Source: Levilactobacillus fuyuanensis (GTDB taxonomy: Bacteria; Bacillota; Bacilli; Lactobacillales; Lactobacillaceae). From it: DNA of 64,000 bases. Below the pieces are notes generated by a model. The model ran no database searches. It saw only the letters and a list, made by a program, of their open reading frames with translations, and was not told the origin of the DNA. Numbering within the stretch: the stretch's first letter is position 1; each line of letters opens with the position of its first letter. The position numbers were made by a program, and so were the translations under genes. This document shows positions 7,644-49,154 of this stretch, piece after piece. The stretch covers positions 1 through 64,000 of the forward strand of contig NZ_RHNZ01000012.1 in assembly GCF_003946395.1 (NCBI RefSeq), in the 5' to 3' direction.

Positions 7644-7675
7644 AGGAGCCTGGGACAAAATCCCAGGCTCCTTTG
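7644..7675 (+). terminator. Terminator after cydDC
   Basis: A perfect 11-bp stem (7645-7655 with 7661-7671), extended by one A-T pair, loop CAAAA, followed by TTTGCT. Confidence 0.85.
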
Positions 7676-7695
7676 CTATCTTATATGGCCGAAAC

Positions 7696-7806
7696 GTGCG
7701 CCAAAAGGCAGCCGGTTCCGCTTAAAACTACTAACCAAACACGCCAAGTTCGGGATTATTCGGTTAGCAACCTTAATGCTCACCAGCTCACCGCCTTTTG
7801 TCGCAC
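7696..7806 (-). repeat. Palindromic repeat family 1, copy A (111 bp)
   Basis: Reverse-orientation copy of the element at 45307-45417 and of the same length. Outer arms GTGCGCCAAAAGGC (7696-7709) and GCCTTTTGTCGCAC (7793-7806) pair except for one base. An inner stem pairs CTAACC (7731-7736) with GGTTAG (7762-7767). The conserved GAGCATTAA and TAAGCGGAAC words are present in reverse complement. It starts 20 bp after the cydDC terminator. Confidence 0.8.
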
Positions 7807-7815
7807 TCTTTTTGA

Positions 7816-28472: not shown

Positions 28473-29771
28473 ATGAGAATGGTTGACATTATTGATAAGA
28501 AACGTAACGGTGGCGAATTGACCAAGGAAGAGATTCAAACTTTCGTGGACGGCGTTGTTTCCGGTGAAATTCCTGATTACCAAACCAGTGCCTTTTTGAT
28601 GGCGACTTACTTCAAGGATATGACCGATGCAGAACGTTCTGAGCTGACGATGGCCATGATGAAGTCTGGGGACCATTTGGACTTATCAAGCATCGACGGC
28701 ATCAAGGTCGACAAGCATTCAACCGGTGGGGTCGGCGATAAGACCAGTATCCCATTGGCACCAATCGTTGCTGCTCTGGGAATTCCCGTTCCAATGATCT
28801 CTGGCCGGGGCCTCGGGCACACGGGTGGCACATTGGATAAATTGGAAGCGATTCCAGGCTACCAAGTGGAAATCAGCGAAGCGGACTTTATCAAACAAGT
28901 TCAAAACGAAGGTTTAGCCATTGTTGGGGCAACCGGGAACATTGCGCCTGCTGATAAGAAAATTTACGCCTTGCGGGATGTGACCGACACGGTTGATTCT
29001 ATTCCGTTGATTGCCAGCTCCATCATGAGTAAGAAGATTGCTTCTGGCACGGATGCACTGGTCATCGATGTGAAGACTGGTTCCGGGGCCTTCATGAAGA
29101 CGCTGGACGATTCACGGGAACTCGCCAAGGCCTTGGTTGGTATCGGTAAAGGGGTCGGCATGAACTGCATGGCCATCATTTCCGATATGAATCAACCTTT
29201 GGGGAATGCCATTGGGAACGCCTTGGAAATCAAGGAATCCATTGATCTTCTGAAGGGTGAAGCGCCTGCCGACATTACCGACTTGGTACTGACGCTTGGC
29301 TCCTACATGGTTGTGATGTCTGGCAAGACCGACAGCATGGCGGAAGCACGTAAGATGTGTGAAGGCACGATTACGGATGGCTCTGCCCTGAAGAAATTCG
29401 GTGACATGGTTGCCGCCCAAGGCGGGGACCGGAGTGTTGTTGACCATCCAGAAATCATGCCACAGGCCAAATACAAGATTCCATTACCAGCCAAGACAGC
29501 CGGTGTGGTTAGTCGGGTTGAAGCTGACGAAATGGGTGTTGCCAGCATGTTACTTGGCGGTGGCCGGCAAAAGGCTGACGACAAGTTGGACTACGCCGTT
29601 GGGATCATGATGAGCAAGAAGGTCGGCGACAAGGTAGCCGCTGGCGACTCACTACTGACCATCTACAGCGACCGCGAAAACGTCGATGACATCAAGGATC
29701 TGTTATACGCCAACATTGAAATCAGTGACTCAGCCGAACCACTGACGCTGATTCATGAGACTGTGAGGTAG
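28473..29771 (+). CDS. pdp: Pyrimidine-nucleoside phosphorylase
   Basis: Phosphorolysis of thymidine, deoxyuridine and uridine to base and (deoxy)ribose 1-phosphate. 432 aa, thymidine phosphorylase family. Visible: [12 protein letters not shown] near residue 81 (phosphate site) and the family signature [15 protein letters not shown] near 112. ATG 28473 follows AATGGAG. It lies 42 bp after deoR and completes the salvage cluster. A palindromic repeat begins 2 bp after its stop codon. Confidence 0.96.
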
Positions 29772-29772
29772 A

Positions 29773-29882
29773 GTGTGGAAGCAGGCGGTAGTTAGTGAGC
29801 ATTAACGTCGCTAGGTTAAAAATCCCGGGTTTGGATTTTTGGCCTAGCGGGGTTAAGCGGAGCTGACTGCCTGCTGGAGCAC
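29773..29882 (+). repeat. Palindromic repeat family 1, copy B (110 bp)
   Basis: About 80 percent like the copy at 45307-45417 by eye. The right part of the outer stem pairs AGCAGGC (29780-29786) with GCCTGCT (29869-29875). The inner stem pairs GCTAGG (29810-29815) with CCTAGC (29843-29848). Both stems differ from copy C by paired changes. It starts 2 bp after the pdp stop, so it may act as the 3' end structure of that mRNA. Confidence 0.85.
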
Positions 29883-29895
29883 GTTTCGGCAACGT

Positions 29896-34233: not shown

Positions 34234-34254
34234 ATGCTTCAATGGGCCAAACCA

Positions 34255-34445
34255 TTCGCCTACGGCTGCCAGAGATTCCGTCTGCTGTGGGGCCGTCTGC
34301 AGCCCAAGGGCGGGCTTCCGACTCGACTTGAAACCTCGCCAAGTTCAGCGAGTTTCCAAGTGCGTCCCGTGGGGTAAGACCCGGAAGAACATCGTGTCTA
34401 ACGCCACTGACACAGCTGCCTCCATCTCTGTCCTCCTGCGGCTAA
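34255..34445 (-). repeat. Palindromic repeat family 2, copy A
   Basis: Shares a long core with 41667-41833 (same strand) and 41964-42134 (opposite strand): GCTGTGGGG, CAGCCCAAGG, GGGCTTCC and CTTGAAACCTCGCC words in the same order. Terminal arms CAGAGAT (34270-34276) and ATCTCTG (34424-34430) pair. The central hairpin pairs CTTG with CAAG and AACCTCGC with GCGAGTTT apart from irregular bases. It lies just downstream of the symporter terminator. The strand label is relative to copy C. Confidence 0.75.
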
Positions 34446-36619: not shown

Positions 36620-37978
36620 TCAGTGGAAAGCCATGTTCAGTAGCAGGACAATCAGAATACCCACGACGGAAATTACGGTTTCCAACACGGTCCAGATACT
36701 CAGGGTCTGCTTTACCGTCAAATCGAAGTATTCTCTGAACATCCAGAACCCAGCATCGTTCACGTGAGAGGCGGCCAATGACCCAGCTCCAATAGCGAGC
36801 ACCATTAATGCGGGATCAACGCCAGCTTGTGCCATCAGTGGCGCAACAATCCCAGCGGCAGTCAGTGCGGCCACGGTTGCGGAACCCAAGGCTACCCGGA
36901 GAACAACGGCGACCAGCCACCCCAGAATCAGTGGGGACATGTTGGAGTCGATGAAGATCTTAGCGACTTCCTTACCGACACCACCGTCGATCAGGACTTG
37001 CTTGAAGGCGCCACCACCCCCGATAACCAGAAGCAACATGGCAATCGACTTCACAGCGTTTTCGATGGATTCCATGATTTCTGAGGTCTTGCGGTTCCGG
37101 CCCCAACCCATGGTAAACATCGCTACCATTAGTGAGATCAGCATGGCAATTGCGGGGTCCCCAATCAGCGCGACGATTTGGTCGAGTAGGGAGGCATTCT
37201 TGGTGGGCGTTGCGCCACCGTCGACCGTCATCTTGTAGATGGTCGTGATGGCCATCAGGATTACGGGGAACAGAGATGTCAGCACGGAGAGCCCAAAGCT
37301 GGGTGATTCGGACGGTTTAAACGTCTTGATTTCACCCAGTGACGACAGGTTCCCCTTACGCTCGAAAGCGGCGGGGGCGTAACGTTGGGCCAGCTTGGTA
37401 AACATAGGCCCGGCAACAATGGCACACGGAATGGCGACGACTAACCCGAACAGCAGAACCTTCCCATCGTTAGCGTTCAAGATCGCCGCGATGGCAACAG
37501 GTGCTGGGTGAGGGGGCAGAAATCCGTGGGTCACGGACAGTGCAGCCGCCATGGAAATCCCTAAGTAAAGGATTGGCACATCGGCTTCAATAGCGATGGC
37601 AAAGACGATTGGGATCAACAGAACCATCCCAACTTCAAAGAAGAGCGCGATACCCAGAATAAATGAAGCGAGCATGATGGCCATTTGCAGGCGTTTCTTC
37701 CCGAATTTGTCAATCAACGTGGTAGCAATAACGTAGGCCCCACCGGCATCGGCGACTAACCGACCCAGCATGGCACCAAATCCGAAGACTAAGGAGAGTT
37801 CGCCAAGTTGGCTCCCAATCCCAGCCTCCACGGTCGTGGCAATTTTGGTTAAGTCCATCCCCAGCAGAATCGCTGTAAGAACGGAGGTCAAAATCAGGGA
37901 GACGAAAGTATTGATCTTAAACTTGATGATTAAAACCAATAAAAAAATGACCCCGATGACTAAAGCTATAAGTTCCAT
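36620..37978 (-). CDS. gntP: Gluconate permease, GntP family
   Basis: Proton-coupled gluconate importer of the inner membrane, 452 aa with about 12-14 helices. Family marks include LVFGFGAMLGRLVADAGG, FLPPHPAPVA near the middle (the GntP signature region) and SHVNDAGFWMFREYFDL near the C-terminus. ATG 37978 follows GAAAGGGC. Downstream of gntK in the same direction, with a weak terminator between them. A paralogue lies at 47799-49154. Confidence 0.93.
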   Translation of the reverse strand: MELIALVIGVIFLLVLIIKFKINTFVSLILTSVLTAILLGMDLTKIATTVEAGIGSQLGELSLVFGFGAMLGRLVADAGGAYVIATTLIDKFGKKRLQMAIMLASFILGIALFFEVGMVLLIPIVFAIAIEADVPILYLGISMAAALSVTHGFLPPHPAPVAIAAILNANDGKVLLFGLVVAIPCAIVAGPMFTKLAQRYAPAAFERKGNLSSLGEIKTFKPSESPSFGLSVLTSLFPVILMAITTIYKMTVDGGATPTKNASLLDQIVALIGDPAIAMLISLMVAMFTMGWGRNRKTSEIMESIENAVKSIAMLLLVIGGGGAFKQVLIDGGVGKEVAKIFIDSNMSPLILGWLVAVVLRVALGSATVAALTAAGIVAPLMAQAGVDPALMVLAIGAGSLAASHVNDAGFWMFREYFDLTVKQTLSIWTVLETVISVVGILIVLLLNMAFH

Positions 37979-41963: not shown

Positions 41964-42134
41964 GGCAGGGGTGGCGCCAGCCGTGACAACGGTGTTAGAC
42001 CGGGTGGTTGATTCTTCCCGGCCTTACTGCGTGGGACGTGTTTGGAAACTCGCCTGAATTTGGCGAGGTTTCAAACCGAGCTGGAAGCCCGTACTTTGGC
42101 TGCAAGCGGTCCCCATAGCGGCAGAACCCCTGCC
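41964..42134 (+). repeat. Palindromic repeat family 2, copy C (171 bp)
   Basis: Terminal arms GGCAGGGGT (41964-41972) and ACCCCTGCC (42126-42134) pair perfectly. The central hairpin pairs GGAAACTCGCC with GGCGAGGTTTC-type arms (about 42048-42084). Opposite orientation to copies A and B. The arms differ from copy A (CAGAGAT/ATCTCTG) by paired changes. Confidence 0.8.
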
Positions 42135-42179
42135 AGCCGCAGGTGACAATTTTTATCCGATTTTACACAAATCAAACAA

Positions 42180-45164: not shown

Positions 45165-45220
45165 TTAACCTTTTGAAATCAAATAATCCGTGGTAAACTT
45201 AAAAGCGGATTATTGATATT

Positions 45221-45293
45221 GTCCCTATAGCACAACAGGATAGGGCACTCGCCTCCTAAGCGAATGATCCCGGTTCGAGTCCGGGTGGGGACA
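45221..45293 (+). tRNA. tRNA-Arg (anticodon CCU)
   Basis: A 73-nt cloverleaf without encoded CCA. Acceptor GTCCCTA pairs with TGGGGAC, anticodon loop CTCCTAA gives CCU (reads AGG), T arm CCCGG-TTCGAGT-CCGGG. The D stem has an A-G mismatch and the anticodon stem a C-A end mismatch. A possible promoter lies upstream (TTGAAA 45173-45178, TGGTAAACT 45191-45199), with a short spacer. Tandem palindromic repeats start 14 bp downstream. Confidence 0.93.
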
Positions 45294-45306
45294 TATTAGA
45301 AAAGAG

Positions 45307-45417
45307 TGCGCCAGAAGGCGATTAGTCAGTGAGCATTAACGTCGCTAAGGTGAAAATCCCGGGTTTGGATTTTTGGCTTAGCGGGGTTAAGCGGAACTGA
45401 CTGCCTTCTGGCGCACG
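45307..45417 (+). repeat. Palindromic repeat family 1, copy C (111 bp, complete)
   Basis: Best-preserved copy. Outer 14-bp perfect arms GTGCGCCAGAAGGC (45307-45320) and its complement (45404-45417). Next AGTCAGT (45325-45331) with ACTGACT (45397-45403). Inner GCTAAG (45345-45350) with CTTAGC (45378-45383) and AAAATCC with GGATTTT around CGGGTTT. The tail GTTTCAGCAA follows, shared by all copies. Confidence 0.88.
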
Positions 45418-45432
45418 TTTCAGCAACAGAGA

Positions 45433-45527
45433 GTCGGAGCACGTCGCTAAGTAAAAAATCCTGGGCTTGGATTATTTGCTTAGCGGGGTTAAGCGCAACC
45501 AGCTGCCTGGGGATGCACGTTTCAGCA
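45433..45527 (+). repeat. Palindromic repeat family 1, copy D (left arm shortened)
   Basis: Direct tandem with copy C. It keeps the inner stem GCTAAG (45447-45452) / CTTAGC (45480-45485), GGGGTTAAGCG and the tail GTTTCAGCAA, but lacks the GAGCATTAA word and the matching left outer arm. Confidence 0.75.
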
Positions 45528-45535
45528 ATAGAGCG

Positions 45536-45631
45536 TTGGCGCACGGCAATAAGACGGGAATCCCGGGTTTGGATTTTTGGCTTAGCGGGGTTAAGCGGAA
45601 CTGACTGCCTTCTGGCACACGTTTCAGCAAT
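45536..45631 (+). repeat. Palindromic repeat family 1, copy E (left arm decayed)
   Basis: Third tandem unit. The right half is almost identical to copy C (GGATTTTTGGCTTAGC onward through CTGCCTTCTGGC), while the left half is shortened and altered (TTGGCGCACGGCAATAAG). It ends with GTTTCAGCAA. Confidence 0.75.
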
Positions 45632-45664: not shown

Positions 45665-45708
45665 AAAAGAGCTAGGACAACGTCAACGAACGTTATCCTA
45701 GCTCTTTT
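45665..45708 (-). terminator. Terminator of the secreted-protein gene
   Basis: A perfect 13-bp stem (45665-45677 with 45696-45708) plus AACGT/ACGTT inside. On the minus strand TTTTCTTG follows. Confidence 0.8.
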
Positions 45709-45736
45709 GGTAATCTCTAATGTTCAGTTGACTTGG

Positions 45737-47798: not shown

Positions 47799-49154
47799 AT
47801 GCAGTTCGTCGTTTTATTATTGGGTATTTTACTGTTACTCTTTTTAATTATTAAAGTAAAATTGAATACCTTCGTTTCACTGATTGTCACGTCGATCTTA
47901 GTGGCATTAGGGTTGGGCATGAACCCAGCCAACATCGCCAACTCCATCAAGGACGGAATCGGTAGCTCCATGGGCGAACTGATTATCGTGTTTGGTTTCG
48001 GGGCCATGATTGGCCGGTTGGTTGCCGATGCCGGGGGTTCTTACCGGATCGCCCGGACCTTGATTAACGTGTTTGGAAAGAAACGCTTACAAGTGGCCAT
48101 CGTAGTCGCTTCCTTCCTGATCGGGATTTCCTTACTTTTCGAAGTCGGGTTAGTTCTGGTTACGCCAATCGTCTTTGCGGTTGCGTTGGAAGCCGAAGTG
48201 CCATTCCTCTATCTGGGGATTTCCATGGCCGCGGCACTGTCCGCCACGCAAGGATTCTTGCCGCCACAACCATCACCTACGGCCGTTGCGACGGTCTTGG
48301 GCGCCAACATTGGTGAAATGTTGCTGATTGGGATCATCGTGGCGATTCCTTGTGTGATCGTTGCTGGTCCTATCTGGACGCGCGTGATTCGGCGGTTCAA
48401 TCCAGACCTATTCGTCATCAAACGTTCTTTACCTGCCTTCGGGGAAGTTAAGGAATTTGATATCGACGAAACGCCTGGATTTGGTTTGTCCGTTGTAACG
48501 TCACTGTTCCCAGTTATTTTCATGGCTGCGGCGACGGTTTACCAGCTGTCAGTCGATGGTGGGGCAGCACCCAAGAATCCACACGGTCTCGATGCCATTG
48601 TGGCGATGTTGGGGAACCCCGTCATTGCCATGGTATTGGCCTTGCTGTTTGCCATTTGGTCCATGGGTTTCCACCGTCAACGAACGATGAAGGAAATCAG
48701 TGCGACCCTGGAAGATGCCATCAAGTCGATTGCCATGTTACTGATGGTTATTGCCGGGGGCTCTGCCTTTAAGGAAGTTCTGATCGATGGTGGGGTCGGG
48801 AAGGCCGTGCAACAATTAATGATGCACTCCAGCCTTTCCCCAATCCTGTTGGCTTGGTTGATCACGGTTATCTTGCGGATCTCTTTGGGTTCCGCTACGG
48901 TGGCCGGGATGACCGCCGCTGGGCTGGTCTTACCGTTGATGACCACGTTGAGTGCCGATCCCGTCATGGTCGCTCTGGCCATTGGTGCCGGGTCATTGGC
49001 CGCTTCACACGTGAACGACGCTGGATTCTGGATGTTCTCAGAATACTTTGATTTAAGTGTTAAGCAGACGTTCCAGGTTTGGACGACGTTGGAAACCGTT
49101 ATTTCTGTCGTTGGTTTGGGCATGGTTATGCTGATGAACGCAATTATTAACTAG
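47799..49154 (+). CDS. GntP-family permease (second copy)
   Basis: 451-aa importer paralogous to the gntP at 36620-37978: shared VFGFGAMIGRLVADAGGSY, FLPPQPSPTAVA and SHVNDAGFWMFSEYFDL. By eye about 60 percent identical. It stands alone without a kinase or regulator beside it, so the substrate could be gluconate or another aldonate. ATG 47799 follows AAAAGAGAG. Own promoter and terminator. Confidence 0.9.
   Translation: MQFVVLLLGILLLLFLIIKVKLNTFVSLIVTSILVALGLGMNPANIANSIKDGIGSSMGELIIVFGFGAMIGRLVADAGGSYRIARTLINVFGKKRLQVAIVVASFLIGISLLFEVGLVLVTPIVFAVALEAEVPFLYLGISMAAALSATQGFLPPQPSPTAVATVLGANIGEMLLIGIIVAIPCVIVAGPIWTRVIRRFNPDLFVIKRSLPAFGEVKEFDIDETPGFGLSVVTSLFPVIFMAAATVYQLSVDGGAAPKNPHGLDAIVAMLGNPVIAMVLALLFAIWSMGFHRQRTMKEISATLEDAIKSIAMLLMVIAGGSAFKEVLIDGGVGKAVQQLMMHSSLSPILLAWLITVILRISLGSATVAGMTAAGLVLPLMTTLSADPVMVALAIGAGSLAASHVNDAGFWMFSEYFDLSVKQTFQVWTTLETVISVVGLGMVMLMNAIIN

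Follow-up and report, generated by a model that had tools for sequence, protein, structure and literature searches.

A repeat of about 120 bases that folds into one long hairpin is best read as a previously unnamed family of dispersed palindromes of the REP and BOX kind. The family is non-coding and confined mostly to lactobacilli, and from the fold, the strand, and the location of its copies we give an even chance to the proposal that its members act as RNA hairpins at transcript 3' ends. Copies were recognized in a window of 64,000 nucleotides from Levilactobacillus fuyuanensis (the whole stretch of DNA that was analyzed), where a sequence-only reading had claimed three units in a row after tRNA-Arg and two more near 7696-7806 and 29773-29882. 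All five are present, and they and their neighbors are as follows:

7644..7672, strand unassigned: terminator-like hairpin of subtype b (AGGAGCCTGGGATTTTGTCCCAGGCTCCT on the strand of the element), between convergent genes, seen in the sequence
7687..7809, minus strand: complete unit A, subtype b (AAGGC...TTTTAAGCGG)
29770..29891, plus strand: complete unit B, following the pyrimidine-nucleoside phosphorylase gene (28473-29771)
45220..45294, plus strand: tRNA-Arg (CCT) preceding the array, called by ARAGORN
45303..45425, plus strand: complete unit C, with 5' arm, apical loop CGGGTTT, 3' arm, and conserved end CACGTTTCAGC
45427..45529, plus strand: incomplete unit 2 of the tRNA-Arg array, with the 3' arm kept and most of the 5' arm gone
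45530..45631, plus strand: incomplete unit 3 of the array, a hybrid of two variants
45668..45709, plus strand: intrinsic terminator after the array, read in the sequence as AGAGCTAGGA...TCCTAGCTCTTTT and kept in genome G001

Units in the Window

The array lies behind tRNA-Arg as described and ends near 45631, but it starts 8 bp after the gene (at 45303) rather than 14, and complete units measure about 118-123 bp instead of the proposed 111 bp. The outer and inner stem variants quoted for units A, B, and C are correct. A nested hairpin is indeed formed by the three complete units, for none of which did a shuffled sequence fold equally well: unit C folds at -71.2 kcal/mol (z -10.0) and scores 136.9 bits with the covariance model, unit B folds at -63.3 kcal/mol (z -8.5), and unit A at -54.8 kcal/mol (z -6.4). 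With its leading AG, unit B completes the TAG stop of the pyrimidine-nucleoside phosphorylase gene.

The hairpin claim does not extend to the two incomplete array units, which fold no better than shuffles. Unit 2 has a z of -2.0, 44.0 bits over 45427-45505, and a BLAST match at 45441-45522; unit 3 has a z of -0.2 and 28.4 bits. The inner 5' and 3' arms of unit 3 are mismatched, and its inner 5' arm (CAATAAGACGGGAATCC) complements not its own 3' arm but that of the copy at the same locus in G001 (L104). The head of unit 1 could serve as a pairing partner for the outer 3' arm of unit 3.

Size and Distribution of the Family

The L. fuyuanensis genome (2.72 Mb in 54 contigs) has 54 BLAST matches to the family, far more than chance would give. 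A covariance-model search for further copies, which the sequence-only reading had proposed, found about 40 full-length, high-scoring hits in this genome with a model built from 26 copies, and more in related species and genera. Among 35 other Levilactobacillus genomes (one per species), 28 have from 31 to at least 59 matches each and the remaining ones have 1-14; G016 and G022 have a single weak match each, and the family is therefore dispensable. In genomes sampled from other families of the order, 22 of 24 lack any match. A pattern scan of named genomes found copies mostly in Levilactobacillus, and also in Lactiplantibacillus, Paucilactobacillus, Furfurilactobacillus, and one Lacticaseibacillus. 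Collections of plasmids and phages gave zero family matches. That the repeat belongs to no named family was borne out by Rfam and the open-access literature: an Rfam scan of the window returned only tRNA, four loci scanned at E 0.1 gave nothing relevant, and no description of the family was found in open-access papers.

Fold, Covariation, and Strand

The fold is conserved well beyond the copies of the window. When 26 copies were aligned without a structure reference, 97.6% of cells were paired, two-sided changes occurred at 24 of 41 pairs, and the covariation score was 0.442, against 0.139 when shuffled and at most 0.096 in slid versions. For 109 copies from named genomes, in an alignment fitted to the model, 95.9% of cells were paired (against 69.2%), 38 of 41 pairs showed two-sided changes, and the score was 0.676 (against 0.174, with slid versions at most 0.078). 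Each position displays four to six pair types in this larger set. The covariation test that had been suggested thus came out well above the shuffled and slid controls in both sets. Asymmetric internal loops are conserved as well, namely a GGTTA bulge, a TGA opposite GGAA, and a bulged A.

The strand that folds can be told from the mismatches. With conserved-wobble columns excluded, G.U cells outnumber A.C cells by 38 to 7 in the smaller set and by 167 to 44 in the larger one, and shuffles give about 1.3 to 1. This excess on one strand indicates that the sense strand is the folding strand, and RNA would be the simplest reading of such strand-specific folding. Part of the G.U excess could stem from strand-biased mutation of transcribed DNA.

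Location at Gene Ends and Terminators

Gene calls were simple longest open reading frames. The upstream gene runs in the direction of the unit at 32 of 40 copies in L. fuyuanensis and at 67 of 81 named loci, leaving 8 copies and 14 loci without a co-directional nearest upstream gene; a sister family (see below) has a co-directional upstream gene at 17 of 17 loci in the same genome. The corresponding p values (2e-4, ~2e-9, and 2e-5) are only indicative, as the copies are kin to one another. At co-directional sites the stop codon mostly lies -2 to +11 bp from the unit. The stop at C34:19648 is native, in that species lacking the unit end the gene at the corresponding codon.

In a second class of sites a terminator comes first, and the unit begins mostly 3-9 bp after its T-run. 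Of 267 copies, 57 have a T-run no more than 22 bp upstream; the count for a control interval farther upstream is 11. The 3' end of the unit itself is CACGTTTCGGC rather than a T-run, and separate terminators stand before or after it. Subtype b has an intrinsic terminator of its own behind it and is often located between convergent genes; the tail at 7644-7672 also occurs after other copies of this subtype. At most compared sites that lack a unit, a plain intrinsic terminator is in its place.

The 150 bp after subtype-a copies in L. fuyuanensis, which are mostly terminator-less, have a composition of A.34, C.26, G.19, and T.21, and control spacers A.29, C.20, G.22, and T.30; the tail is thus A/C-rich and G/T-poor on the sense strand. 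This A/C-rich, G-poor DNA prompted a look at Rho-dependent termination. The Rho RNA-binding domain PF07497 was not found in L. fuyuanensis or in 12 other Levilactobacillus genomes, and controls including Lactococcus lactis were positive. Levilactobacillus appears to be without Rho, which makes Rho-dependent termination behind the units unlikely, and this candidate was rejected on the 13 genomes. An integron attC-like site was considered on anatomy alone (an extrahelical base and a GTTAAGC box) and was likewise rejected, as the units are solitary at gene ends and no cassettes are present.

Inheritance, Exchange, and Terminator Replacement

Twenty-nine flank segments of L. fuyuanensis copies were found in G001, with 86-99% identity, and most have a unit at the same place. 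At 14 of 25 comparable orthologous sites, a copy resembles one from a different locus more closely than it does its ortholog. The clearest exchange is at L281 in G001, where the unit differs at 1 position from the copy at C45:66485 and at 23 from its ortholog. Changes in the replaced units are mainly two-sided, with pairing preserved. The positions are old, and the units on them have been exchanged between sites. At the other 11 sites, where descent is vertical, there are 5 two-sided changes, and the single changes keep a pair in 14 cases and break one in 12. Since these changes are mostly single and nearly as often pair-breaking, present-day constraint on any one copy is modest or weak. Conversion of one arm is visible in L265.

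These results qualify the earlier view that paired changes argue for a selected structure. Swapped copies at 14 of 25 sites mean that some of the paired change reflects the exchange of whole units, which alters both arms at once and weakens the argument. What continues to speak for selection is covariation across genera, the asymmetry between G.U and A.C, and the fixed orientation at gene ends. Even so, the variety of pair types seen among genera requires that compensatory change took place at some point.

Gains and losses were read at several sites. Losses are internal deletions from which the outer ends remain (G024, G029, and L212). Behind groEL, L. fuyuanensis alone among the species read there has a unit plus terminator in this orientation, and a plain terminator of the type AAAGAAGCCAACCG...CGGTTGGCTTCTTT is common to G001, G008, G024, G011, G002, G009, and G033. 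On this comparison the gain is polarized, the unit and its terminator having replaced the resident plain terminator. The joints display short matches, TTAACAG on the left and TTTC on the right. The site has also gained a unit in G007, there pointing the other way, and in G034 a unit stands behind the groEL terminator. No target duplication is present at the groEL gain or at the occupied/unoccupied pairs L028/L264, L030/L261, L088/L274, and L090/L276. A copy found only in G001 (L279) was considered as an empty-site candidate; its flanks are absent from L. fuyuanensis.

Arrays, Half Units, and Related Repeats

Tandem arrays (L012, L192, L268, and others) combine a full unit with further units in which mainly the 3' half is preserved. 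The 373 profile hits include 31 three-prime halves, nearly all of them 20-90 bp after a complete unit, and no real five-prime half, the sole hit of that shape being truncated where its contig stops. These 3' halves persist while lacking a hairpin. The sister family has the same ends and neck with a GC-rich apical hairpin and forms arrays of 2-4 hairpins; its arrays in L. fuyuanensis (L071, L067, L068, L069, and L070) carry their own variant at each position.

Two other repeats were seen in the window. A second, unrelated repeat (GCGGCTGCCAGAGATTCCGYCTGCTGTGGGG...CTTGAAACCTCG...CGAGTTTCCAAG) with hairpins of its own lies at 34244-34400 (plus strand) and 42010-42150 (minus strand). Its relatives follow units of the present family at C34:168302 and C34:19648, and in G019, G002, G010, and G028 they stand directly after stop codons. 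In addition, GntP-family permease paralogs at 36620-37978 (minus strand) and 47799-49154 (plus strand) share an inverted repeat of 183 nt at 74% identity, about 12 kb apart.

Proposed Role and Alternatives

Of the options raised by the sequence-only reading, a 3' RNA element is supported by covariation across genera, the preference for G.U over A.C, and orientation at gene 3' ends. Units point sense-wise behind a stop codon or terminator T-run, where they would be transcribed, and the sense strand folds into an extended hairpin whose internal loops are conserved. Such an RNA hairpin may shield the upstream mRNA against 3'-5' exonucleases, and it may serve as a backup for termination or read-through in a genus without detectable Rho. 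Copies probably spread and homogenize by template switching or ectopic recombination where short matches occur, and not through their own transposase. Against an RNA role, copies after a T-run would be reachable only through read-through.

A parasitic MITE- or REP-like DNA element, whose hairpin is kept as the single-stranded DNA target of a transposase or nuclease and which is merely tolerated at gene 3' ends, is a possible but doubtful alternative. A dispersed multi-copy family with conserved ends, near-absent in a few species, fits this description; pneumococcal BOX, RUP, and SPRITE have been judged parasitic on similar distributions (PMC3049150), and a single-strand recognizer could also yield strand asymmetry. 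Mere tolerance, however, predicts equal orientations, and gains replace a terminator instead of leaving a target duplication at occupied/unoccupied pairs. No long, possibly autonomous copy with an ORF between its half units was found in the loci examined, and the lack of real 5' halves in 373 hits also counts against this reading. Nor was a named helper found for the MITE-like mobile unit suggested earlier: L. fuyuanensis has four Y1_Tnp matches, and the two Y1 transposases checked are of the IS200/IS605 type (NF033573, 140 and 134 bits) and score 40.7 and 41.2 bits with the RAYT model for REP-associated tyrosine transposases, below the cut-off of 80. It is unlikely that the paired changes are mutational rather than selected, with palindrome arms corrected by template switching and copies overwritten by gene conversion. 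The whole-unit replacements, including the G001 copy with 1 rather than 23 differences, the one-arm conversion in L265, and the scarcity of double changes where descent is vertical (5, next to 26 single ones) are what such a process would leave. Arm correction would nevertheless erase the asymmetric loops, yet the GGTTA bulge, TGA/GGAA, and bulged A stay, and it gives no preference for G.U over A.C; exchange, for its part, relocates existing pairs and does not give rise to the four to six pair types seen at each position.

A further possibility is a class of mobile 3'-end cassettes that spread by terminator replacement, bounded by the stop codon and the RNA 3' end and possibly copied from transcripts, with the 3'-half tandem units as 5'-truncated copies; we consider this a long shot. 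Least credible of all is that the unit is just a long intrinsic terminator. Relatives do have plain terminators at unit sites, and outer stems of the AAAAGGC/GCCTTTT kind look like those of terminators, but no T-run directly follows the hairpin, subtype b has a separate terminator behind the unit, and many copies stand after a complete terminator.

Significance and Comparison with Known Systems

Food and plant lactobacilli, in which a REP transposase and Rho were not detected, have their own large family of gene-end hairpins, whose orthologous sites number in the dozens across about 36 species. Its copies hold their fold while swapping sequence and can replace the terminator of a gene. Because flanks stay while units are swapped or lost, natural swap experiments already exist, in which the same gene is found with the element, another variant, a remnant, or a plain terminator, and mRNA levels and 3' ends can be compared. 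The family also provides a caution, as whole-unit exchange can inflate covariation in repeats.

Several known repeats resemble the family in part. REP elements lie downstream of genes and often abut or supply a TAG stop, and the G-T pairs of their stems have been interpreted as a hint that they are transcribed (PMC3733652). The present units are likewise intergenic palindromes downstream of coding regions that abut or supply a TAG stop and are rich in G.U (G-T) pairs. In contrast, REPs are 20-40 bp long with a GTAG or CGTC tag, whereas the unit is about 118 bp and begins AGAGTG, a transposase of the TnpA-REP type was not found, and one orientation prevails among the copies.

ERIC is a 127-bp imperfect palindrome, and its RNA hairpins are reported to regulate neighboring genes in Yersinia (PMC2267715). 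The ERIC elements of enterobacteria and Vibrio share with the present family a single long hairpin of similar length in intergenic DNA; they belong to another phylum and are set apart by description alone. To our knowledge, neither gene-fixed orientation nor terminator replacement has been described for ERIC.

The BOX, RUP, and SPRITE elements of Streptococcus pneumoniae are small interspersed structured repeats that move slowly and whose insertions are old; SPRITE is terminator-like and lies near gene 3' ends, and BOX has a variable number of internal modules (PMC3049150). The present family is similar in being made of small structured repeats with old insertions in a Gram-positive genome, and differs in its strong sense bias and in whole-unit exchange between sites. 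Arrays of a full unit plus 3'-half units are unlike the boxA-boxB(n)-boxC arrangement of BOX, from which the family is set apart by architecture alone. Unlike a RUP-like MITE, it lacks a target-site duplication at four site pairs and at groEL.

As the defining features of REP and MITE elements that were tested are missing from it, the repeat is called a new family. It is a new family of a known kind, to which REP, ERIC, and BOX/RUP/SPRITE are nearest by how they work, and it is unusual in its sense orientation, the replacement of terminators, the exchange of whole units, and its arrays of 3' halves.
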